Source: Actinomadura craniellae | GTDB lineage: Bacteria; Actinomycetota; Actinomycetes; Streptosporangiales; Streptosporangiaceae | Assembly: GCF_003289645.1 (NCBI RefSeq) | Contig: NZ_QLYX01000001.1 | Location: 372,001-436,000, forward strand | Reading direction: 5' to 3' | DNA length: 64,000 nt | Shown here: one piece after another, positions 28,136 to 62,664 of the stretch | Numbering within the stretch: the first letter of the stretch is position 1 | Layout of the letters: each line of letters starts with the position of its first letter | Position numbers and translations under genes: made by a program | Notes under the pieces: model-generated | Databases searched by the model: none | Told to the model about the DNA's origin: nothing | What the model saw: only the letters and a program-made list of their open reading frames with translations

Positions 28136-29524
28136 ATGGACACTGAAGAGAGCCGCACCGAAGAGAACCGCGCCGGTGACGCGGAGCGCAGGAAGCCCGC
28201 CATCAGCCTGGACCGGCTCTCCTCCCGCTACCGCCTGGAGTTCGAGGAACTCTCGACCGAGTTCCACGGCAAGTGCCCGGTTGCCTGGAACGACACCCAC
28301 GGCGGCTACTGGTTCACCAGCGGCCACAAGGAGTTGTTCGATCTCGCCCGGCGCGCCGACGTCCTGTCCAACGACTTCGACGTCGAGGGTGTCAGGCGCG
28401 GCTACCAGGGGATCAGCATCCCGTCGCCGACCGGTGAGCGCCGCTTCCGGGGCGGGTTCCTGGAGATGGACCCGCCGGAGCAGCGGTACTACCGGCAGGC
28501 GCTGAACCCCTACCTGTCGCCGGCGGCGGTCCAGGGATGGAAGCCGGTGATCGAGGAGATCACCCGGGCCTGTCTCGACGAGAAGATCGAGAGCGGCCGG
28601 ATCGACTTCGTCGACGACCTGGCCAACATCGTGCCGGCGGTGCTCACCCTGGCGCTGCTCGGCATGCCGCTGAAGGACTGGGACGTCTACTGCGAGCCCA
28701 TCCACGCCATGGTGTACACCCCGATGGACTCGCCGCTGTACGAGCGGGTGCGGGAACTCCAGATGACCATGGGCGTCCACATGATGGAGACGATCAACGG
28801 CATCCGGAACAACCCGCGCCCGGGTCTGATCGACGAGCTGGTCACCTGCGAGATCAACGGTTACCGGCCCGACGACATGGAGATCTTCGGCGTCCTCCTG
28901 CTGCTGATCGGCGGCGGGTTCGACACCACGACCGCGCTGACCGCGCACTCGCTGGAGTGGCTGTCGGAGCACCCCGACCAGCGGGAGCGGCTGAGCCGGG
29001 AGCGGGAGACGCTCCTGGACAGCGCTACCGAGGAGTTCCTGCGGTTCTACACCCCCGCGCAGGGCGACGGGCGCACGATCTCCCAGGACTGCGTGATCAA
29101 CGGCACGGAGTTCAAGGAGGGCGACCGGCTGTGGCTGTCGTGGGCGATGGCCAACCGGGACGAGAAGGTCTTCGAGGACCCCCACACCATCCACCTGGAC
29201 CGGAAGGGCAACCGGCACAACAGCTTCGGGCTGGGCATCCACCGGTGCATCGGGTCGAACGTGGCCCGGGCGACCTTCAAGATCATGCTCACCCAGGTGC
29301 TGGACCGGATGCCCGACTTCGTCTGCGACCCCGCCGGCGCCGTGCACTACGACACCACCGGCGTCATCAACGGCATGAAGCACCTGCCGGCCACCTTCAC
29401 CCCCGGCAAGAGGCTGGGCGCCGGCCTGGACGAGACGATCGCGAAGATGCAGCGCGTCTGCGACGAGCAGCGTCTCGCCGAGCCGGTCACCGTCCGCAAG
29501 GCCCGGGCGAAACTCGATGACTGA
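28136..29524 (+). CDS. Cytochrome P450
   Basis: The 462-residue P450 is cytosolic, with no membrane anchor. It has the I-helix motif GGGFDTTTAL, the ExxR-region FLRFYTPAQ, and the haem loop FGLGIHRCIGSNVAR with Cys371 as the axial ligand. GGAG sits 6 nt before the ATG. Ferredoxin lies directly upstream and a matching FAD reductase downstream, giving a complete class I chain in one operon. The family is not one I can name, and the substrate is unknown. Confidence 0.9.
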   Translation: MDTEESRTEENRAGDAERRKPAISLDRLSSRYRLEFEELSTEFHGKCPVAWNDTHGGYWFTSGHKELFDLARRADVLSNDFDVEGVRRGYQGISIPSPTGERRFRGGFLEMDPPEQRYYRQALNPYLSPAAVQGWKPVIEEITRACLDEKIESGRIDFVDDLANIVPAVLTLALLGMPLKDWDVYCEPIHAMVYTPMDSPLYERVRELQMTMGVHMMETINGIRNNPRPGLIDELVTCEINGYRPDDMEIFGVLLLLIGGGFDTTTALTAHSLEWLSEHPDQRERLSRERETLLDSATEEFLRFYTPAQGDGRTISQDCVINGTEFKEGDRLWLSWAMANRDEKVFEDPHTIHLDRKGNRHNSFGLGIHRCIGSNVARATFKIMLTQVLDRMPDFVCDPAGAVHYDTTGVINGMKHLPATFTPGKRLGAGLDETIAKMQRVCDEQRLAEPVTVRKARAKLDD

Positions 29525-29588
29525 ACGATCGGAGTACCACGTGATCCAGCTGGTGAACGGCCCGGCGGCACGGGAACCGGGCCGGTGA
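29517..29588 (+). CDS. Possible 23-residue coupling ORF between P450 and the DUF35-thiolase-like gene
   Basis: The frame MTERSEYHVIQLVNGPAARE (23 residues in all) starts 8 bp inside the P450 gene and ends with a TGA overlapping the GTG start of the next gene (GTGA). An in-frame GTG at 29541 has GGAG 7 nt upstream and could be the true start. The next gene has no clear ribosome binding site of its own, so translation may pass through this frame. Confidence 0.3.
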   Translation: MTERSEYHVIQLVNGPAAREPGR

Positions 29589-31270
29589 GCGCGCCGCGCC
29601 GGCCGCTGCCGTTCGTCACCCCCTGGAACGAGTTCTACTGGACGGCGGGTGCGGACGGGCGGCTCCGGATCCAGGAGTGCGCGTCCTGCGCGGCACTGAT
29701 CCATCCGCCGAAGCCGTCGTGCCCGCACTGCCGGGGTGCGGAGGTGGGCGTGCGGGAGGTGTCGGGGTTCGCGACGCTGTTCGGGTTCACCGTCAGCCAC
29801 CGGTTCGCGCTGCCGGGGCTGCCGACCCCCACCATCGTCGCCCAGGTCGCGTTGGAGGAGGACCCGCGGGTCCGCCTCACCACGCGCCTGGTGGATTGCG
29901 TCGAGGAGGATCTTCGGCTCGGTATGCGGATGGAGGTGACGTTCGAGCAGGTCGAGGACGTGTGGTTGCCGTTGTTCCGGCCCACCGCCGAGCAGCCCGA
30001 GCAGCCGGCCCCGCTGCCGGAGGACGAGCTGCCCGCCGCGGCGGCCCGGGCCCTGTCGGCCCGGCTGTCGGCCCGGACCGCGCCGGCCGGCCGCAAGTTC
30101 GAGGACGACGTCATCCTGTCGGGAGCCGGGCACTCGGCGATCGGCCGCCGCCAGATGCGCGACCCGCTCGCGTTGACGGTGGAGGCGTGTCGGGCGGCGG
30201 TGGCCGATGCGGGTCTGGCGATGGAGGACATCGACGGTCTGTCGACGTATCCGGGTGGTGGCCTGGAGCACGGGATGGGTGAGGGTGGGGTCACCGCGTT
30301 GGAGGCGGCGCTGCGGATCCGTCCTGCCTGGTTCAACGGTGGTGGGGAGACGTTCGGGCCGGGCGGGTCGGTGATCGCGGCGATGCTGGCGGTCTCCGCC
30401 GGGCTGGCCCGGCACGTGCTGTGCTTCCGGACCGTGTGGGAGTCCACGCACACCCAGCTGCTGAAGGAAGGCCGCCTGCGCCTGGGCGGGGGCGGCCGCG
30501 TCACCGGTGACATGGGCTGGGGCATGCCGTTCGGCGCGACCTCGGCCGCGCACGTCCTGGCGCAGACCGCCCAGCGGTACATGCACCGCTACGGCGCCAC
30601 CCGGGAGACCCTGGGCTGGATCGCGCTCAACCAGCGGGCGAACGCGGCGCTCAACCCCACCGCGGTGTACCGCGAGCCGATGACGATGGACGACTACCTG
30701 GGCGCACGGATGATCACCACGCCGTTCGGGCTCTACGACTGCGACGTCCCCTGCGACGCCTCGGTCGCGGTGATCGTCTCGGCCGCCGACACCGCGGGCG
30801 ACCTGCGGACCCGCCCCGTCCGGGTCGAGGCCGTCGGCACCCGGATCACCGAGCGGCTGGAGTGGGACCAGAGCACGTCCACGCACGAGCCCCAGGTGAT
30901 GGGCCCGGCCGCGCACCTGTGGACCCGGACGTCGCTGCGTCCCGACGACGTGGACGTGGCGCAGCTCTACGACGGCTTCACCTTCAACTGCCTGTCCTGG
31001 ATCGAGGCGCTGGGTTTCTGCGGGATCGGGGAGGGCCGGGATTTCCTGGACGGTGGCAAGAACATCGCCCGGGACGGGGTGCTGCCGCTGAACACCCACG
31101 GCGGGCAGCTCTCCCACGGCCGCACCCACGGCATGGGCCTTCTCCATGAGGCGATCGTGCAGCTCCGCGGCGACGCCGGAGAACGCCAGATCGACAACGC
31201 CCGCGTGGCCGTGGTCAGCAGCGGCGGCCTCACACCCAGCGGAGTCATGCTGCTCCGCACCGACACCTGA
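29585..31270 (+). CDS. DUF35 (zinc ribbon/OB-fold) fused to a thiolase-like, Ltp2-type aldolase domain
   Basis: The 561-residue protein has an N-terminal DUF35 region: a zinc ribbon with Cys32, Cys35, Cys46 and Cys49, then an OB-fold to about residue 130. From about residue 165 there is an SCP2/thiolase-like domain (GAGHSAIGRRQMRDPLALTV; VAQLYDGFTFNCLSWIEALG). The usual nucleophile segment NACATG is replaced by FGPGGSVIAA, and the GHP motif by SHGRTHGMG, so it is not a classical thiolase. Ltp2-type retro-aldolases of steroid side-chain degradation lack the same residues and need a DUF35 partner (ChsH2); here both parts are one chain. The GTG start overlaps a short upstream frame. Confidence 0.82.
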   Translation: MSAPRRPLPFVTPWNEFYWTAGADGRLRIQECASCAALIHPPKPSCPHCRGAEVGVREVSGFATLFGFTVSHRFALPGLPTPTIVAQVALEEDPRVRLTTRLVDCVEEDLRLGMRMEVTFEQVEDVWLPLFRPTAEQPEQPAPLPEDELPAAAARALSARLSARTAPAGRKFEDDVILSGAGHSAIGRRQMRDPLALTVEACRAAVADAGLAMEDIDGLSTYPGGGLEHGMGEGGVTALEAALRIRPAWFNGGGETFGPGGSVIAAMLAVSAGLARHVLCFRTVWESTHTQLLKEGRLRLGGGGRVTGDMGWGMPFGATSAAHVLAQTAQRYMHRYGATRETLGWIALNQRANAALNPTAVYREPMTMDDYLGARMITTPFGLYDCDVPCDASVAVIVSAADTAGDLRTRPVRVEAVGTRITERLEWDQSTSTHEPQVMGPAAHLWTRTSLRPDDVDVAQLYDGFTFNCLSWIEALGFCGIGEGRDFLDGGKNIARDGVLPLNTHGGQLSHGRTHGMGLLHEAIVQLRGDAGERQIDNARVAVVSSGGLTPSGVMLLRTDT

Positions 31271-31301
31271 CGGCATCGAGCGGACCGATACGGAGGACAC
31301 G

Positions 31302-55289: not shown

Positions 55290-56357
55290 GTGCCCGTGAT
55301 GCAGCGCAGTGACGTGGCCCGCCGGCCGGCCGGATCGCCGCGCGACCGCGGGGTCCATGCGCTGCGGGTGGTCCGGGCGGTACGCGAGACCGCGGACGCC
55401 AGATCGTTCGTGTTCGAGATACCTGCCGAACTTGCCGACAAGTACATTTATCAGGCCGGTCAGTTCCTGACCTTCCGCCTGGAACTGGACGGCCGGACGC
55501 ATCTGCGGTCCTACTCGATGTCGTCTTCGCCCGCGATCGACGATCAGGTTCGGGTGACCGTCAAGCGGGTGTCCGGCGGGGTCGTCTCGAACTGGATGAA
55601 CGACACCCTCCAGCCGGGGGACGAGATCGAGGCGACCGTCCCGGCCGGGGCCTTCGTCCTGGGCGAGGTCGAGCGCGACGTCGTCGCCTTCGCCGGCGGC
55701 AGCGGCATCACCCCGGTGTTCTCCATCGTGAAGACCGCGCTGGCGACCTCGTCACGGCGGGTGCGGCTCCTGTACGCGAACCGGGATCGGGATTCGGTCA
55801 TCTTCGGCGCGGAACTGGCGGAACTGGCCGAGCGGTACGGGGACCAACTGGCGGTGACACACCACCACGACGCCGACTCCGGCCTCGTCCGGGAAGGCGA
55901 GATCCGCCCCCTCCTCGACTCCGCGGGTGACGCCGAGTTCTACCTCTGCGGTCCCGAGCCGTTCATGGAACTGGTGGAGCGCACCTTGCTGGCCGCCGGG
56001 GTCGGCACCGACCGCATCCACATCGAGAGGTTCACCCCGCTGGATCCGGCCGGGCCCGTGGAGCCCTCCGCCGAAGCGGCGGCGCCCGTACGGGTCACCG
56101 TCCGGATCGGCCGCGACACCGTCACCGGAGATCACCGCCACGGTTCCACGATCCTGCAGACGGCGCGCTTCCTGGGGCTGCGACCGCCCTCGTCGTGCGA
56201 GTCCGGAAGCTGCGCGACCTGCATGGCCCGGGTCGTCGAGGGCGCGGCCTCGATGCGCAACAACGAGGCGCTGACCCCGGAGGAGGTGGCCGAGGGATGG
56301 GTGCTCACCTGCCAGGCCGTGCCGACCGGTCCGTCCGTGCATGTCGTCTACGAGTAG
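55290..56357 (+). CDS. FAD/NAD(P)H [2Fe-2S] reductase (KshB/PaaE-like), Rieske oxygenase partner
   Basis: The 355-residue protein has a ferredoxin-reductase FAD domain with RSYSMSSSP, an NAD-binding domain with FAGGSGITPVFSIVKTAL and YLCGPEPFMELVE, and a C-terminal plant-type [2Fe-2S] domain with Cys303, Cys308, Cys311 and Cys341. This FNR-ferredoxin order is that of KshB, HmpA-like and PaaE-type reductases that feed Rieske oxygenases. It should serve both oxygenases of the operon. The start may be GTG 55290, GTG 55296 or ATG 55299; none has a strong ribosome binding site. Confidence 0.9.
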   Translation: MPVMQRSDVARRPAGSPRDRGVHALRVVRAVRETADARSFVFEIPAELADKYIYQAGQFLTFRLELDGRTHLRSYSMSSSPAIDDQVRVTVKRVSGGVVSNWMNDTLQPGDEIEATVPAGAFVLGEVERDVVAFAGGSGITPVFSIVKTALATSSRRVRLLYANRDRDSVIFGAELAELAERYGDQLAVTHHHDADSGLVREGEIRPLLDSAGDAEFYLCGPEPFMELVERTLLAAGVGTDRIHIERFTPLDPAGPVEPSAEAAAPVRVTVRIGRDTVTGDHRHGSTILQTARFLGLRPPSSCESGSCATCMARVVEGAASMRNNEALTPEEVAEGWVLTCQAVPTGPSVHVVYE

Positions 56358-56371
56358 AGGAGAACGCCCCC

Positions 56372-56458
56372 GTGACAAGCTCACCAGGGCACCGCACCAG
56401 GTGCCTTCCGGCGTGCGGCCCCGCCGCACGGCCCCGGCTCGCGGCGGGGTCCGCATGA
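56372..56458 (+). CDS. Possible 28-residue ORF coupled to the SDR gene
   Basis: A GTG 9 nt after a strong AGAGGAG (56356-56362) opens a 28-codon frame that starts MTSSPGHRTRCLPACGPAAR and ends with a TGA overlapping the SDR ATG (ATGA). It fills the whole gap between reductase and SDR genes. The SDR start has only a weak site of its own. Of the short frames in the window this has the best initiation signal. Confidence 0.4.
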   Translation: MTSSPGHRTRCLPACGPAARPRLAAGSA

Positions 56459-57198
56459 AGCGGGTGGCCGTGGTGACGGGCGGCGCGTCGGGAATGGGGC
56501 TGTCCATCTGCCACCATCTCGCCCGGCGCGGTCATCAGGTCGCCGTCATGGACGTCGACGGCCCGGCCGTGCGGCGGGCCTGCGCGGAACTCCGGGCGGC
56601 CGGCGCGCGGGCGCTGGCATGCGAGGCGGACGTCACCGACCGGCCGGCGGTCGAGGAGGCGTTGCGCGAGGTCCGTGCCGGGCTCGGCCCGGTGGAGATC
56701 CTCGTCACGAGCGCCGGGCTGGTGGCGTTCGACTCCTTCACCGACATCACGCCCGAGTCGTGGGACCGGGTCCTCGAGGTCAACCTGACCGGCACCTTCC
56801 ACTGCGTCCAGGCAGCCGTCCCGGACATGCTGGCGGCCGGGTGGGGGCGCATCGTCACGATCTCGTCGTCGAGCGCGCAGCGCGGCTCGCCCGGCATGGT
56901 CCACTACACGGCGTCCAAGGGCGCCGTCATCGCCATGACGAAGGCACTGGCACGGGAGTACGCCGGGTTCGGCATCACGGTGAACACCATCCCGCCGTCG
57001 GGCATCGACACCCCGATGTCCCGCAGCTCCCAGGCGGCGGGTCACCTGCCCGGCAGCGAGGTCATGGCGAAGGCGATCCCGGTCGGCCATCTCGGGACGG
57101 GCGACGACATCGCCGCGGCGTGCGCCTTCCTCTGCTCCGAGGAGGCCGGCTACATCACCGGCCAAGTGCTCGGAGTCAACGGCGGGGCGGTGATATGA
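56455..57198 (+). CDS. SDR-family oxidoreductase
   Basis: The 247-residue enzyme has VVTGGASGMGLSICHHLARR (NAD(P) binding), VTSAGLV in place of NNAG, the catalytic YTASKGAVIAMTKALAREY, and the cofactor/product loop TIPPSGIDTPM. It is FabG-like in length. It probably oxidises an alcohol formed by the oxygenases of the same operon. The ATG at 56455 overlaps the stop of the short upstream frame; a longer in-frame start at 56341 would overlap the reductase gene and is rejected. Confidence 0.88.
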   Translation: MKRVAVVTGGASGMGLSICHHLARRGHQVAVMDVDGPAVRRACAELRAAGARALACEADVTDRPAVEEALREVRAGLGPVEILVTSAGLVAFDSFTDITPESWDRVLEVNLTGTFHCVQAAVPDMLAAGWGRIVTISSSSAQRGSPGMVHYTASKGAVIAMTKALAREYAGFGITVNTIPPSGIDTPMSRSSQAAGHLPGSEVMAKAIPVGHLGTGDDIAAACAFLCSEEAGYITGQVLGVNGGAVI

Positions 57199-57273: not shown

Positions 57274-58530
57274 ATGGCGCGTTGGCCGAAACCGGCTGAA
57301 GGAAGCTGGACGGAGCATTACCCGGAGATCGGAACAGGGCTGATCTCCTTCGAGGATTCTGTTTCGCCGGAGTTTTATGAGTTGGAGCGGGAGGCGATTT
57401 TTCGGCGGGCCTGGCTGAATGTGGGTCGGGTGGAGCAGTTGCCGCGGAAGGGGAGTTACTTCACCAAGGAGGTTCGGGTTGCCCGGACTTCGGTGGTGGT
57501 GGTGCGTGATGGTGGGGGTGGGGTGCGTGCTTTTTTCAATGTGTGTCGGCATCGGGGGAACAAGCTGGTGTGGGATGAGTTTCCGGGGGAGGAGACCTCG
57601 GGTTTTTGTCGTCAGTTCACCTGCAAGTACCACGGGTGGCGGTATGGCCTGGACGGTGCGCTGAACTTCGTTCAGCAGGAGGGTGAGTTCTTCGACCTGG
57701 ACAAGGAGGACTTCGGTCTGGTCCCGGTGCACTGCGAGGTGTGGGCGGGGTTCATCTTCGTCAACCTGGCCAGGGAACCCGAGCAGTCACTGCACGACTT
57801 CCTCGGCCCGATGGTCACCGCACTCGACGGCTACCCCTTCGACAAAATGACCGAGTGGTACGTCTTCCGGGCCGACAACAGAAGCAACTGGAAGATCTTC
57901 GCTGACGCCTTCCAGGAGTACTACCACGTGCCCGCCCTGCATCCGCAGCAGGTCCCGATCGAGGTGCGCACGCCAGGGTCGGGTTTCGAGTGCGCGCACT
58001 TCCAACTGGACGGCCCGCACCGCGTGGTCAGCACCGGCGGCGCCCGCCGCTGGACCCTGCCGCCCGAGTACATGTATCCCATCGAGCGGGCCACCCGCAG
58101 CGGCCTGGTCGGCCCCTGGGAGTCGCCGGAGATCGGCGAGCCGCCCCCGGGACTCAACCCGGGCCGCATCGACCCCTGGGGCATCGACAACTTCCAGATC
58201 TTCCCCAACCTGGAGATCCTGATCTATCGCGGCTGGTACCTCCTCTACCGCTACTGGCCGACCTCGCACAACACCCACCACTTCGAGGCGATGCTCTGCT
58301 TCCAGCCCGCCACCACGGTGCAGGAACGGGTGGAGCACGAGGTGGCGGCGGTCGTGTTCAAGGAATTCGCGCTCCAGGACGCCGGCATGCTCACCGGCAC
58401 GCAGACCGCGCTGGAGTCCGGAGTGCTCGACCGGTTCCCACTCAACGACCAGGAAGTGCTGGTCCGGCACTTCCACAAGGTGGTCGCCGACTGGGTCGCC
58501 GACTACCAGAAGAACCACGCGGAGGTGTGA
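57274..58530 (+). CDS. Rieske non-haem iron oxygenase, alpha-subunit type (copy 1)
   Basis: The 418-residue protein has an N-terminal Rieske [2Fe-2S] domain with Cys91, His93, Cys117 and His120 (CRHRGNK and CKYHGW; the 23-residue spacing is longer than usual) and a catalytic domain with DAFQEYYHVPALH, giving the two His ligands, and a downstream Asp. It should insert oxygen into a ring or activated C-H using electrons from the reductase at 55290. The DNA of the Rieske domain is almost identical to copy 2 at 59820, while the catalytic domain differs strongly. AGGA lies before the ATG. Confidence 0.9.
   Translation: MARWPKPAEGSWTEHYPEIGTGLISFEDSVSPEFYELEREAIFRRAWLNVGRVEQLPRKGSYFTKEVRVARTSVVVVRDGGGGVRAFFNVCRHRGNKLVWDEFPGEETSGFCRQFTCKYHGWRYGLDGALNFVQQEGEFFDLDKEDFGLVPVHCEVWAGFIFVNLAREPEQSLHDFLGPMVTALDGYPFDKMTEWYVFRADNRSNWKIFADAFQEYYHVPALHPQQVPIEVRTPGSGFECAHFQLDGPHRVVSTGGARRWTLPPEYMYPIERATRSGLVGPWESPEIGEPPPGLNPGRIDPWGIDNFQIFPNLEILIYRGWYLLYRYWPTSHNTHHFEAMLCFQPATTVQERVEHEVAAVVFKEFALQDAGMLTGTQTALESGVLDRFPLNDQEVLVRHFHKVVADWVADYQKNHAEV
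57364..57855 (+). repeat. 492-bp near-identical block shared by the two Rieske genes, copy 1
   Basis: This block matches 59910-60401 at 491 of 492 positions; the only difference is T at 57402 versus C at 59948. It covers codons for the Rieske domain and the linker to the catalytic domain. Identity ends abruptly on both sides. The first two thirds use many T-ending and TTG codons unlike the genes around it. Confidence 0.95.
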
Positions 58531-58535
58531 GGAAG

Positions 58536-58871
58536 ATGACCGACCGCCTGCTGCCCGCCGGGTTCGCCGAACTCGAACCCTTCGCCGGGACCTGGTGCCT
58601 CGCCACGGAGACCGAACGGTACGCCCGGCGCATGGCCAGTTCCATGGAGGAGATGCGGACCTTCTACGACGCCTTCTTCCCCCGGCTGGAGGAGGCCGTC
58701 GCCCACTGCGACACGTTCCCCCTCGACGCCCTTCCCGAGGACGCCCGGCGGCTGTTGCAGCTCGTGTACTCGCTGGTCATGGTCTCCATGTCGATCGAGA
58801 TCTTCCACCAGCCCAAGGCGGTCGACGCCGCCGACGCCGAGATCGAACGCGTGCGGGAGCCGGTTCCGTGA
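58536..58871 (+). CDS. Small conserved partner protein of Rieske oxygenase (copy 1), unknown function
   Basis: The 111-residue protein starts 5 bp after the Rieske stop, with GAGGTGTGAGGAAG as ribosome binding site. It has no metal or cofactor motif. It shares with copy 2 (61091) the patterns LLPAxFAxLEP, WCLATETERY, AHCDxFPLDAxPEDA and an EPVP ending, and is predicted mostly helical. It is not the beta subunit (NTF2-like, about 170 residues) of ring dioxygenases. Because each Rieske gene has one, it may be a subunit or assembly factor. Confidence 0.8.
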   Translation: MTDRLLPAGFAELEPFAGTWCLATETERYARRMASSMEEMRTFYDAFFPRLEEAVAHCDTFPLDALPEDARRLLQLVYSLVMVSMSIEIFHQPKAVDAADAEIERVREPVP

Positions 58872-58917
58872 CCGGCCGACCGCGACGGCCCGGAAGAGGA
58901 CAGGGAGGAGCGGCACC

Positions 58918-59760
58918 ATGGCAGTGATCACAGTGCGGAAGCTCGGCCGGGACGTCGGCGCCGAGGTCGTCGGCGTCGACCGCGACCGGATGCTGTCCGA
59001 CGGCGCCCTGCCCGCCGCGGTCATGGACGCGCTCGAAGCGCACGGCGTGCTGGTGTTCCGGAACCTGCACCTCGACGCGGAGACCCAGGTGGCGTTCTGC
59101 CGCAGGCTCGGGGACGTGGACACCTCGCCCGGGCACCATCCGGTCGCGGGCATCTACCGGGTCAGTCTCGACACCACGAAGAACTCCTCCGCCGCCTACC
59201 TGCGCGCCACCTTCGACTGGCACATCGACGGGTGCACCCCGGAGGACGACGCCTACCCGCAGTCGGCCACGATGCTCACGGCCCGGGCCGTGGCCGCCGC
59301 GGGGGGTGAGACCGAGTTCGCCAGCACCTACCGGGCCTACGACGACCTGACCGACGAGGAGAGGAAGCGGTTCGCCGACCTGCGCGTCGTGCACTCCCTG
59401 GAGGCGTCGCAGCGCTCGGTGACGCCCGAGCCCACACCGGAGCAACTGGCCGCGTGGCGGCGGCGCCCCGTCAAGGAACACCCGCTGGTCTGGACCCACC
59501 GGTCCGGCCGCCGTTCCCTGGTGCTCGGTGCCTCCGCCGACCGGGTCGTGGGCATGGACCACGAGGAGAGCCGGGTGGTGCTCGACGGCCTGCTCGACCG
59601 GTGCACCGAGCCCGAACGGGTGTACCGCCACGAGTGGTCGGTGGGCGACACGGTGATCTGGGACAACCGGGGCGTCATCCATCGCGCGGCGCCCTACGAG
59701 CCCGACTCGCCCCGGGAGATGCTCCGCACGACGGTGCTGGGCGACGAACCGATCCAGTGA
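58918..59760 (+). CDS. TauD/TfdA-type Fe(II)/alpha-ketoglutarate dioxygenase
   Basis: The 280-residue enzyme has the iron ligands His102 and Asp104 in WHIDGC and His255 in DNRGVIHRA, and a C-terminal Arg (PREMLRTTV) that would bind the alpha-ketoglutarate carboxylate. It is a typical TauD/TfdA-family length. GGAGG lies 8 nt before the ATG. It stands between the two Rieske/partner modules, so three different oxygenases are co-expressed. Hydroxylation or C-O/C-N cleavage of a pathway intermediate is likely; the substrate is unknown. Confidence 0.9.
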   Translation: MAVITVRKLGRDVGAEVVGVDRDRMLSDGALPAAVMDALEAHGVLVFRNLHLDAETQVAFCRRLGDVDTSPGHHPVAGIYRVSLDTTKNSSAAYLRATFDWHIDGCTPEDDAYPQSATMLTARAVAAAGGETEFASTYRAYDDLTDEERKRFADLRVVHSLEASQRSVTPEPTPEQLAAWRRRPVKEHPLVWTHRSGRRSLVLGASADRVVGMDHEESRVVLDGLLDRCTEPERVYRHEWSVGDTVIWDNRGVIHRAAPYEPDSPREMLRTTVLGDEPIQ

Positions 59761-59819
59761 CCGATGAGCGGGCGAAGCCCCATCACCCCCACCGCTGAAC
59801 CTCACGAAGGAGTACAGGC

Positions 59820-61085
59820 ATGTCCCGTCTGCCCAAGCCGCCCGAAGGAAGCTGGACGGAGCACTACCCGGAGTTGGGCACCGCGCCGGTGTCGTACGAG
59901 GACTCCATCTCGCCGGAGTTTTATGAGTTGGAGCGGGAGGCGATTTTCCGGCGGGCCTGGCTGAATGTGGGTCGGGTGGAGCAGTTGCCGCGGAAGGGGA
60001 GTTACTTCACCAAGGAGGTTCGGGTTGCCCGGACTTCGGTGGTGGTGGTGCGTGATGGTGGGGGTGGGGTGCGTGCTTTTTTCAATGTGTGTCGGCATCG
60101 GGGGAACAAGCTGGTGTGGGATGAGTTTCCGGGGGAGGAGACCTCGGGTTTTTGTCGTCAGTTCACCTGCAAGTACCACGGGTGGCGGTATGGCCTGGAC
60201 GGTGCGCTGAACTTCGTTCAGCAGGAGGGTGAGTTCTTCGACCTGGACAAGGAGGACTTCGGTCTGGTCCCGGTGCACTGCGAGGTGTGGGCGGGGTTCA
60301 TCTTCGTCAACCTGGCCAGGGAACCCGAGCAGTCACTGCACGACTTCCTCGGCCCGATGGTCACCGCACTCGACGGCTACCCCTTCGACAAAATGACCGA
60401 GCGCTTCTACTACCGCGCGGAGGTCGGCGCCAACTGGAAGCTCTACATGGACGCTTTCCAGGAGTTCTACCACGCCCCTGTCCTGCACGCTAAGCAGACG
60501 CCGGCGAAGTTCTCGACGGCGGCCCAGCAGTCGGGTTTCGAGGCGCCGCACTACCAGCTCGACGGTCCGCACCGGCTGGTCAGCACGTCGGGCATCGTGG
60601 CCTGGGAACTGGCCTCGGACATGCGCAAACCGATGGAGGACATCACCCGCAGCGGGCTGTTCGGCCCCTGGGACGGGCCGGAACTCGGCGAGATGCCCCC
60701 CGGGCTCAACCCGGCGGGCTGCGACCCCTGGGGCCTGGACTCGTTCCAGCTGTGGCCGAACTTCGTGATCCTGATCTGGTCGGGAGGCTGGTACCTCACC
60801 TACCAGTACTGGCCGACCTCGTACAACACGCACACGTTCGAGGGCAACCTCTACTTCGTGCCGGCCAGGAACGCCCGGGAGCGGGTGGCCCACGAGATGG
60901 CCGCGGTGACCTTCAAGGAGTACGGGCTGCAGGACGGCAACACGCTCGAGGCGACGCAGATGTCGCTGGAGTCCCGGGCGGTCACCCACTTCCCGCTGAA
61001 CGACCAGGAGATCCTCTGCCGGCACCTGCACAAGGTCGCGGCCGACTGGGTCGAGGACTACAAGAAGAACCACACGGAGGTGTGA
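59820..61085 (+). CDS. Rieske non-haem iron oxygenase, alpha-subunit type (copy 2)
   Basis: The 421-residue protein has the same Rieske domain as copy 1 (Cys91, His93, Cys117, His120) and a catalytic domain with DAFQEFYHAPVLHAKQ, carrying the two His ligands, and PLNDQEIL near the end. From about residue 195 it diverges clearly from copy 1 across the active-site domain, so the substrate or site of attack probably differs. AAGGAG precedes the ATG. A copy of the 111-residue partner follows after 5 bp. Confidence 0.9.
   Translation: MSRLPKPPEGSWTEHYPELGTAPVSYEDSISPEFYELEREAIFRRAWLNVGRVEQLPRKGSYFTKEVRVARTSVVVVRDGGGGVRAFFNVCRHRGNKLVWDEFPGEETSGFCRQFTCKYHGWRYGLDGALNFVQQEGEFFDLDKEDFGLVPVHCEVWAGFIFVNLAREPEQSLHDFLGPMVTALDGYPFDKMTERFYYRAEVGANWKLYMDAFQEFYHAPVLHAKQTPAKFSTAAQQSGFEAPHYQLDGPHRLVSTSGIVAWELASDMRKPMEDITRSGLFGPWDGPELGEMPPGLNPAGCDPWGLDSFQLWPNFVILIWSGGWYLTYQYWPTSYNTHTFEGNLYFVPARNARERVAHEMAAVTFKEYGLQDGNTLEATQMSLESRAVTHFPLNDQEILCRHLHKVAADWVEDYKKNHTEV
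59910..60401 (+). repeat. 492-bp near-identical block shared by the two Rieske genes, copy 2
   Basis: It matches 57364-57855 at 491 of 492 positions, at an offset of 2546 bp. The codon register is the same in both genes. It is long enough to support recombination that would delete the TauD gene and one partner gene. Confidence 0.95.
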
Positions 61086-61090
61086 CGGAC

Positions 61091-61426
61091 ATGGCCGACA
61101 GCCTGCTGCCCGCCGAGTTCGCCGACCTGGAGCCGTACGCGGCGGACTGGTGCCTGGCGACCGAGACCGAGCGTTACGGAAAGCGTCTCGCCACGTCGAT
61201 GCAGGACATCCAGGCGTTCTACGACGCGGTCGTGTCGCGGGCCGAGGCGGCGATCGCGCACTGCGACCGGTTCCCGCTGGACGCCATGCCCGAGGACGCG
61301 CTCAACCTGCTGCACCTGCTGTACTCGATGATCAATGTGTCGTTCTGCGTGGAGGCATGGGGCCAGCAGCGGGTCCCCGACACGGGCGCGGCCATGCTGG
61401 ACTGCCTCATCGAACCCGTCCCATGA
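61091..61426 (+). CDS. Small conserved partner protein of Rieske oxygenase (copy 2), unknown function
   Basis: The 111-residue protein is a diverged paralogue of that at 58536, the same length without gaps, and follows its Rieske gene by 5 bp with GGAGGTGTGACGGAC upstream. It contains WCLATETERYGKRLATSM and AHCDRFPLDAMPEDALNLLH. The central cysteine in AHCD is shared by both copies. Its stop overlaps the amidohydrolase start (ATGA). No function can be assigned from sequence. Confidence 0.8.
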   Translation: MADSLLPAEFADLEPYAADWCLATETERYGKRLATSMQDIQAFYDAVVSRAEAAIAHCDRFPLDAMPEDALNLLHLLYSMINVSFCVEAWGQQRVPDTGAAMLDCLIEPVP

Positions 61427-62664
61427 CCGACGCGATCGTCCTGCGGGCCGGGCGCTGGGTCGACGTCGACGCCGGACGGGTCCGGTCGCCGGCGGTGGTC
61501 GTGGTGGAGGGAGGGCGCATCACCGCGCTGAACCCCGCCGAGCCGCCCACCGCCGCGACCGAGATCGACCTGGGCGACCTGACCCTGCTGCCCGGCCTGA
61601 TGGACATGGAGATCAACCTGCTCATCGGCGGGCCCGACAACCCGACGGGCCTGCCGAACCCGCTGCACGGCGTGCAGGACGACCCGGTCTACCGCACGTT
61701 GCGGGCGACGGTGAACGCCAGGACGACGCTCCTCGCCGGGTTCACCACGGTGCGCAACCTCGGGCTGATGGTGAAGACGGGCGGCTACCTGCTCGACGTC
61801 GACCTGGCCCGGGCGATCGACCAGGGCTGGGCCGCGGGCCCGCGGATCGTGGCGGCCGGCCACGCCATCACGCCCACCGGCGGGCACCTCGACCCCACGA
61901 TGTTCCAGCGGCTCGCACCGCACATCATGCCGTTGAGCGTCGAGGAGGGCATCGCCAACGGCGTCCCCGAGGTGCGCAGGGCGGTCCGCTACCAGATCAA
62001 GCACGGCGCGGGGGTCATCAAGATCTCGGCGTCCGGCGGGGTGATGTCCCACGGCACCACCGCCGGCGCGCAGCAGTACTCCGACGAGGAACTTGCGGCG
62101 ATCGTCGACGAGGCGCATCGTGCGGGGATCAAAGTGGCCGCCCATGCCCACGGCGACGCCGGGATCAGGGCTTGCATCCGTGCCGGGGTGGACTGCATCG
62201 AACACGGTTCGCTCGCCAGCGATGAGACGATCCAGCTGATGGTCGACCACGGCACGTTCCTCGTTCCCACGAGCTACCTGTCGGAGGGGCTCGACCTCTC
62301 CAAGGCGCCCCCCGCACTGCAGAGAAAGGCCGCGGAGGTCTTCCCCCGGGCTCGGCGAACGCTGGGTAAGGCCATCGAGGCCGGAGTGAAGATCGCCTGC
62401 GGCACCGACGCCCCCGCGATCCCGCACGGGCACAACGCCAAGGAGCTCTGGGCCCTGGTCGACCGCGGCATGACCCCGATGCAGGCCCTGCGCGCCGCGA
62501 CCGTCACCAGTGCCGAACTGATCGACGCCGACGACCGGGGCCGCCTGGCCCCCGGCCTGCTGGCTGACATCATCGCGGTGCCCGGCGACCCGTCCCAGGA
62601 CATCACGGCCGTTCAGGATGTCCGGTTCGTGATGAAGGACGGCCAGATCTACAAGAACGACTGA
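61423..62664 (+). CDS. Amidohydrolase-family protein lacking the canonical HxH motif
   Basis: The 413-residue protein has the fold of imidazolonepropionase/prolidase-like amidohydrolases: a small beta domain formed by both ends and a TIM barrel. It keeps the likely bridging Lys in GAGVIKISASGG, the histidines of AAHAHG and CIEHGS, and the catalytic Asp in CGTDAPAIPHG. The first metal motif after LPGLMD, usually HxH, reads MEINLL. The enzyme may bind a single metal or use Glu/Asn as ligands. It is coupled to the partner gene upstream and may hydrolyse a lactone, amide or ring product. Confidence 0.85.
   Translation: MTDAIVLRAGRWVDVDAGRVRSPAVVVVEGGRITALNPAEPPTAATEIDLGDLTLLPGLMDMEINLLIGGPDNPTGLPNPLHGVQDDPVYRTLRATVNARTTLLAGFTTVRNLGLMVKTGGYLLDVDLARAIDQGWAAGPRIVAAGHAITPTGGHLDPTMFQRLAPHIMPLSVEEGIANGVPEVRRAVRYQIKHGAGVIKISASGGVMSHGTTAGAQQYSDEELAAIVDEAHRAGIKVAAHAHGDAGIRACIRAGVDCIEHGSLASDETIQLMVDHGTFLVPTSYLSEGLDLSKAPPALQRKAAEVFPRARRTLGKAIEAGVKIACGTDAPAIPHGHNAKELWALVDRGMTPMQALRAATVTSAELIDADDRGRLAPGLLADIIAVPGDPSQDITAVQDVRFVMKDGQIYKND

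Follow-up and report, generated by a model that had tools for sequence, protein, structure and literature searches.

We analysed a 64,000-nucleotide stretch of the Actinomadura craniellae genome (contig NZ_QLYX01000001.1, positions 372,001 to 436,000; hereafter the window, W), which holds two Rieske oxygenase genes, A and B, in the same direction and with A about 2.5 kb upstream of B. Gene A (57274..58530, plus strand) is an open reading frame (ORF) of 418 amino acids and gene B (59820..61085, plus strand) one of 421 amino acids, each with a Rieske 2Fe-2S domain (PF00355) and a mononuclear-iron catalytic domain (PF00848). Direct comparison confirmed an earlier observation that 57364..57855 in A and 59910..60401 in B (both plus strand, codons 31-194) agree at 491 of 492 bases. 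Comparison of assembled genomes makes it very likely that this block arose by gene conversion of the Rieske module between A and B, and that such conversion has recurred in relatives carrying the two genes in tandem.

Cys91, His93, Cys117 and His120, which we take to be the Rieske motif residues, were present in both proteins. His218, His223 and Asp369, presumably the 2-His-1-carboxylate iron ligands, were invariant in 47 sequences. The best sequence match was 6y9c (E 2e-27, residues 31-223), and the nearest solved structures included carnitine monooxygenase and stachydrine demethylase. The GbcA model NF058607 scored 124 bits, far below its cut-off of 670. In alpha subunits of Rieske non-heme iron oxygenases, electrons pass between subunits of a head-to-tail trimer; the structure predicted for A is that of a monomer, and a mixed trimer of A and B is conceivable.

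The genes are arranged in the order TetR, reductase, short-chain dehydrogenase (SDR), A, 111-amino-acid ORF, TauD dioxygenase, B, 111-amino-acid ORF, amidohydrolase and 106-amino-acid ORF, and all those located here are on the plus strand. The FAD/NAD/2Fe-2S reductase (55290..56357; PF00970, PF00175, PF00111) and the SDR (56455..57198; PF13561) precede A. Between A and B lie the first 111-amino-acid ORF (58536..58871), also found after A in relatives, and the TauD-type dioxygenase (58918..59760; PF02668). Gene B is followed by a paralogue of that ORF (61091..61426), likewise seen in relatives, and by the amidohydrolase (61423..62664; PF01979), which stands after B in relatives too. Neither 111-amino-acid ORF had a Pfam match; paired ORFs of this kind stand next to the oxygenases at those related loci that were examined, and they may encode a small partner subunit. 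The cluster neighbours point to no particular substrate.

The sole mismatch in the block (57402 T, 59948 C) is synonymous, TTT or TTC for Phe43. Outside the block, nucleotide identity between A and B was 74% in codons 1-30 and 70.7% in the catalytic halves (codons 195-421; 57856..58530 in A and 60402..61085 in B, both plus strand and unconverted), where amino acid identity was 58.5%. Four-fold degenerate sites were 100% identical in the block (82 sites) and 65% identical in the catalytic half (62 sites). Therefore, the block identity reflects neither conservation at the protein level nor chance. The 5' edge lies at codon 30/31, and identity breaks off sharply at the 3' edge (GAG|TGG versus GAG|CGC), so that the sequence-only reading was right that identity stops suddenly and that the catalytic domains differ. 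Judged by their divergence, A and B are old paralogues outside the block, and the window shows a very recent, near-complete conversion. In its own genome the block was found at these two places, with one further relative of 72%. The window block grouped with the B gene of Parafrankia soli in the tree (98/93, supported), a weak hint of conversion from B to A that leaves the direction unsettled. Composition leaves it undecided as well: GC at third positions is low in codons 1-30 of A too, but through A and T, not G and T.

Relatives were taken from a scan of genome contigs, of which the best 80 of 307 were kept; L numbers denote loci and G numbers genomes. Furthermore, 150 Nocardia genomes were scanned. 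A match at E<1e-185 was found in 48 of them, and 40 carry the two genes near each other on a single contig, with start distances of 2461-2582 bases. The other eight were excluded: G475 (genes on two contigs), G476 (other order), G376 (B only) and five with one weaker match. The 40 Nocardia pairs, together with three from the family of the window (the window itself, Actinocorallia populi, L056, and G259), made up 43 tandem pairs. The comparison set consisted of 49 pairs of other layout, mostly mycobacterial, with the B module first and the A module about 4-5.5 kb further on. In six Mycobacterium/Gordonia loci (L064, L081, L090, L100, L103 and L114), the cluster was seen as two modules in reversed order, B-ORF-amidohydrolase followed by reductase-SDR-A-ORF-TauD. 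Pair alignments omit genes on the minus strand of a locus, fragments at contig ends and genes below 50% identity. The tree comprised 55 pairs (43 tandem and 12 of the 49 non-tandem), two lone B genes and four outgroups. Converted tracts were sought with a GENECONV-like run-length permutation on third positions of the whole gene.

The catalytic halves formed one A clade (100/100, supported) and one B clade (99/94, supported), with 1 label change over the tree. Codons 31-194 gave 13 label changes, 12 of them forced by supported branches. Moreover, A and B of the same genome were supported sisters in seven genomes: W, L056, G259, L155, L143, and the sister species L126 (the locus of Nocardia genome G418) and L123 (the locus of G370). 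In the tract test, 8 of the 43 same-genome pairs were significant at global p<0.05 (these seven and L124), compared with none of 3612 different-genome pairs (1806 A-B, 903 A-A and 903 B-B). The catalytic half alone gave no significant result in any of the 43 same-genome pairs. Exact identical runs of at least 40 nucleotides numbered 25 in 15 genomes, all within codons 3-195. The sequence-only reading had named uniform divergence of orthologous pairs as the outcome that would speak against it; these pairs were compared, and uniform divergence is not what the tandem layout shows. Tree labels and tract test together strongly support its proposal of conversion and extend it to a recurrent process.

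The tracts varied by genome, covering codons 32-124 in L143, 63-131 in G259, 90-172 in L155 and 87-146 in L124. L056 had three, at codons 3-25, 40-64 and 99-195. The tract of L123 ran from codon 31 to about 183. That of L126 ran from 31 to 192 with one mismatch, which is nearly the span of the window block in a different sequence. In three related Nocardia loci (L054, L055 and L057), identity between A and B dipped to 50-58% around codons 97-112 within an otherwise similar Rieske half, as if one copy had taken a short stretch from elsewhere.

Tracts began exactly at codon 31 in four loci (W, L126, L123 and L148) and at 32 in L143, and they ended at 194-195 in two (W and L056). The predicted structure of A (predicted local distance difference test score, pLDDT, 84.7) has a helix that starts at residue 32, and its catalytic domain opens with a strand at residue 194. 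Because the borders match this predicted fold, the block corresponds to the Rieske module with its linkers, in agreement with the earlier assignment to Rieske domain and linker.

Residues that separate A from B in the 43 tandem pairs occupied 66 columns in 195-421, none in 31-194 and one upstream. The upstream column is residue 26, Phe in 43 of 43 A proteins and Tyr in 43 of 43 B proteins; Val30/Ile30 separates them nearly as well. Both residues lie in the strip of codons 24-30 just before the block (57343..57363 in A, 59889..59909 in B, both plus strand). At the same threshold, 43 pairs of the mycobacterial layout had 17 separating columns in 31-194 and 78 in 195-421; six non-tandem pairs (L063, L072, L080, L094, L103 and L121) were left out of this count and kept in the conversion test. 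Even with silent changes included, an unconverted strip remains between stretches of converted DNA at codons 24-30 in L126 and at 25-30 and 34-35 in L056. Selection may thus hold the strip that precedes the Rieske module together with the matching catalytic half.

No conversion signal was found in the 49 non-tandem pairs, where the longest identical run was 38 nucleotides. Controls within genera behaved alike. The longest runs were within 14-30 nucleotides in Nocardia G476, where the genes are 5.4 kb apart in the other order, and in four genomes of the genus of the converted G259 (G256, G263, G264 and G307; 4.6-9.3 kb apart), compared with 206-443 nucleotides in four tandem genomes measured alongside. 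Closeness of A and B thus seems to be needed for conversion.

The linked reductase was counted in 42 of the 43 tandem genomes; L140 was left out, since its contig has no upstream sequence. A full-length linked orthologue was present in 7 of the 42, the window included, and most tandem Nocardia clusters lack it. All seven had significant tracts, compared with 1 of the 35 without it, namely G259. Put the other way, 7 of the 8 significantly converted genomes had the full linked reductase and none of the other 34 did (Fisher p 3e-7, uncorrected for kinship). In 9 of the 35 genomes without a linked copy, the best reductase match anywhere in the genome had 42-52% identity, while the linked reductases of the six other genomes that have one were 59-68% identical. 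Therefore, the orthologue appears to have been lost in these nine. The ferredoxin-like end of the reductase, about 90 amino acids, was kept alone in three tandem and 12 other loci. Irrelevance of the linked reductase had been considered on a partial count, in which a match of at least 80 amino acids occurred in 3 of 17 tandem loci and 52 of 59 loci among L064-L122 (40 full-length and 12 partial). This was rejected once all tandem genomes were counted, since the full reductase then marks the converted ones. A second reductase (53% amino acid identity) was observed at C1 580346-581332, about 7 kb from a third, remoter oxygenase paralogue (C1 571918-573162; 62% amino acid identity to B) that lies about 139 kb away.

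In the mechanism that we propose, homologous recombination between A and B would repeatedly copy stretches of the Rieske half (codons ~31-194) while leaving the flanks unexchanged. Conversion would stop at codon 195, and often at 31, because beyond these points A and B have diverged too far for pairing, and because selection presumably keeps the paralogue-specific parts (codons 24-30 and the catalytic half) distinct. Closeness would make conversion possible, and a homogenised module would probably also be favoured where both oxygenases need one dedicated reductase. The Rieske module would then evolve as one interchangeable part, and the two catalytic halves, which may serve different substrates, would stay specialised. 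A shared dedicated reductase plausibly favours keeping a common Rieske module, and this is to be read as an association, not as proof.

A stronger version, close to the sequence-only proposal that conversion preserves docking to a single reductase, makes selection for docking the main driver of homogenisation, with closeness merely permitting it. The near-perfect coincidence of full linked reductase and conversion in tandem genomes fits this version, as do the nine genomes in which only a distant reductase can be found. In addition, the available part of a study of CntA/CntB describes the reductase as delivering to the Rieske cluster (PMC7948474). However, the full linked reductase is present in 32 of 48 non-tandem pairs, yet none of the 49 was converted, and G259 was converted without it. 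Only three independent reductase contrasts were supported on the tree of catalytic halves, two with conversion, none against and one neutral (p 0.5). An alternative reading is that linkage mirrors how the cluster is expressed or how old it is. The evidence on docking is mixed, and docking as the main driver is a serious contender against which we lean slightly.

The most complete blocks also had an unusual base composition. In codons 31-120 of the window genes, third positions were 0.11-0.18 C, 0.22-0.36 T and 0.00 A. The six genes of W, L126 and L123 had the highest third-position T in these codons among 190 aligned genes, and their third-position C was 0.14-0.28 against a median of 0.51. Over codons 31-194, the keto (G+T) share of third positions was 0.82-0.84 in L126, 0.68 in W and 0.58-0.60 in L123, compared with 0.42 (standard deviation 0.05, maximum 0.55) in the other 80 tandem genes. 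The GC skew was about +0.37, +0.25 and +0.11, respectively, against -0.01 (standard deviation 0.05, maximum 0.12).

In the window, the skewed part covers codons 31-125 (57364..57648 in A, 59910..60194 in B, both plus strand). Relative to related sequences, third positions there had changed at 21 of 32 C, 1 of 1 A and 0 of 14 G. First and second positions had changed at 3 of 34 C, 6 of 36 A, 0 of 46 G and 0 of 37 T (p 0.00065). Codons 126-194 had one change. In L126, third positions had changed at 32 of 55 C and 2 of 35 G (p 1e-7), and first and second positions at 7 of 58 C, 5 of 64 A, 2 of 80 G and 0 of 73 T (p 0.0017). Judged from these alignments, the change from C or A to G or T on the coding strand is one-way in W and L126 and stops at the block. 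Significant asymmetry was absent from the catalytic halves of both genes in W and L126 and from the partly converted blocks of L056 and L143, and it was not significant in L123 alone. Over all 43 genomes, skew and conversion were uncorrelated (Spearman 0.11, p 0.49). The skew is confined to the three most complete blocks, which represent two lineages.

The composition scan covered 17,544 segments of 60 codons in 82 loci, namely the 80 relatives plus G418 and G370, which were added for their blocks. Seventeen segments had the G/T composition, 16 of them in the oxygenase genes of G418 and G370; the only other one was in L043 (11820-12612, minus strand). A separate G/T-rich patch was seen in the window at 30170-30350, in a ChsH2/thiolase-like gene. 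It lies within a segment (28726-31280) that is about 90% identical to a second place in the same genome, around 517-520 kb of contig C1, with stretches of 98-100%, and the patch itself falls in a stretch mostly 90-100% identical to the second copy. Other 100% stretches of that copy had ordinary composition, and the patch is only suggestive.

C-to-T and A-to-G changes on one strand are expected from single-strand exposure, as in mitochondrial DNA. Repeated conversion and strand-specific mutation might therefore feed each other in a self-reinforcing, mutating recombination hotspot that arose independently in the window and in one Nocardia lineage. The coding strand of the block would be exposed as single strand in an R-loop or D-loop and change from C to T or G and from A to G. 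The resulting G/T-rich DNA would suit RecA, for which the available part of one study reports a preference for TGG repeats (PMC3763553), so that conversion would become more frequent and carry new changes into both genes. We regard this extension as unlikely, and DNA of such composition imported from an unsampled source would look similar.

Foreign DNA placed in both genes would make the shared block a product of horizontal transfer instead of internal conversion. Besides its odd composition, the window block reaches at most 83.5% amino acid identity to any aligned relative, against 85-88% for its catalytic halves. Between L126 and L123, the block differs by 14% and the catalytic halves by 5-7% (86% and 93-95% identity). 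However, two independent insertions of one piece identical from edge to edge are less likely than one import followed by conversion. The composition of L123 is intermediate (keto share of third positions 0.60, between 0.42 and 0.84), and the partly converted L056, G259, L143 and L124 are ordinary in composition. No plasmid match at E<1e-40 was found in PLSDB, and a plasmid origin was rejected on this ground. Transfer in place of conversion is thus rather improbable.

An assembly artefact, in which both copies were built from the short reads of only one, is a further concern for a 7.5 Mb draft in 41 contigs. The three longest blocks (W, L126 and L123) all lie on contigs below 1 Mb, the G475 genes are on separate contigs with B starting from base 37 of its own, and the evidence consists of assembled sequence. 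On the other side stand the mismatch inside the block and anomalies of composition that go no further than its borders. Furthermore, graded, mosaic identity occurs in many assemblies, including contigs of several Mb (L124 with 180 nucleotides, L161 with 63). An artefact is very improbable on these grounds. Purifying selection without recombination fits the finding that, in most unconverted pairs as well, the Rieske half is better conserved than the catalytic half (about 70% versus 60% nucleotide identity in mycobacteria), but it was rejected for the eight significant genomes, where four-fold sites were 82-100% identical compared with 37-66% in the 49 non-tandem pairs, identity lay in bounded tracts and same-genome A and B were sisters, and it retains next to no probability.

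Several observations weigh against recurrent conversion as the explanation. No globally significant tract was found in 35 of the 43 tandem pairs, which rest on the tree and on the missing A/B-specific residues; in these remaining genomes, conversion is older or rarer. For codons 31-194, the B gene most similar to A was that of the same genome in only 17 of 43 genomes; for the catalytic half, this held in 2 of 43. The tract test on codons 1-194 alone was significant in 4 of 43 pairs, since contrast is lost where a region is converted throughout. At local p<=0.001 over the whole gene, 9 of 43 same-genome pairs were found together with 5 of 1806 different-genome A-B pairs, and no A-A or B-B pairs. 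In mycobacteria, phylogeny is a confounder of gene order. Codons 31-125 of the block in the window have an odd composition and may be of outside origin. The reliance on assemblies and the few reductase contrasts given above belong here as well.

If conversion is accepted, the tandem genomes form a natural repeated experiment in which an electron-transfer module is swapped between two Rieske oxygenase catalytic halves. The borders at about residues 31 and 194/195 would mark where such oxygenases can be recombined. Varying gene order and the loss or retention of the reductase allow what enables conversion and what makes it beneficial to be tested separately. If confirmed, the one-way base drift, which is confined to the most converted blocks, would link recombination with strand-specific mutation in bacteria.

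Among known enzymes, the quaternary-amine Rieske oxygenases CntA and Stc2 (PDB 6y8j, 6zgp and 4quq) were among the best fold matches, and fold alignment gave only about 20% identity. Glu215, which does not vary among 47 sequences, corresponds in alignment to the bridging glutamate in the EcYH motif of CntA. Antigenic variation of Neisseria pilin is linked to a guanine quadruplex (G4), and silent partial copies there diversify one expressed gene. The oxygenases resemble it as a case in which recombination of a bacterial gene is linked to a G-rich element, with no G4 shown here; unlike in pilin, homogenisation acts on two complete genes. Prokaryotic genes such as tuf undergo long-lasting concerted evolution according to the available part of one study (PMC6053082), and the oxygenases likewise show recurrent, long-term concerted evolution of bacterial paralogues. 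The abstract of that study is about genes, not about a single domain, and its main text does not mention Rieske or oxygenase.

No report of conversion or concerted evolution in Rieske oxygenases was found by title or beginning of the abstract in the open-access literature. The closest parallel is mammalian TLR1/TLR6, for which the accessible part of the report describes region-limited concerted evolution through independent conversions with nearly the same borders (PMC2077338). There too, tandem paralogues have one region homogenised while the other diverges, and shared binding partners were proposed as the reason. The oxygenases differ from these animal receptors in that tract positions vary more, genomes can be compared for spacing and for a partner gene, and a strand-biased base drift, on which the accessible part of that report is silent, occurs in some blocks. 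Region-limited concerted evolution is thus already known, and its form in a bacterial enzyme, as described here, appears to be new.

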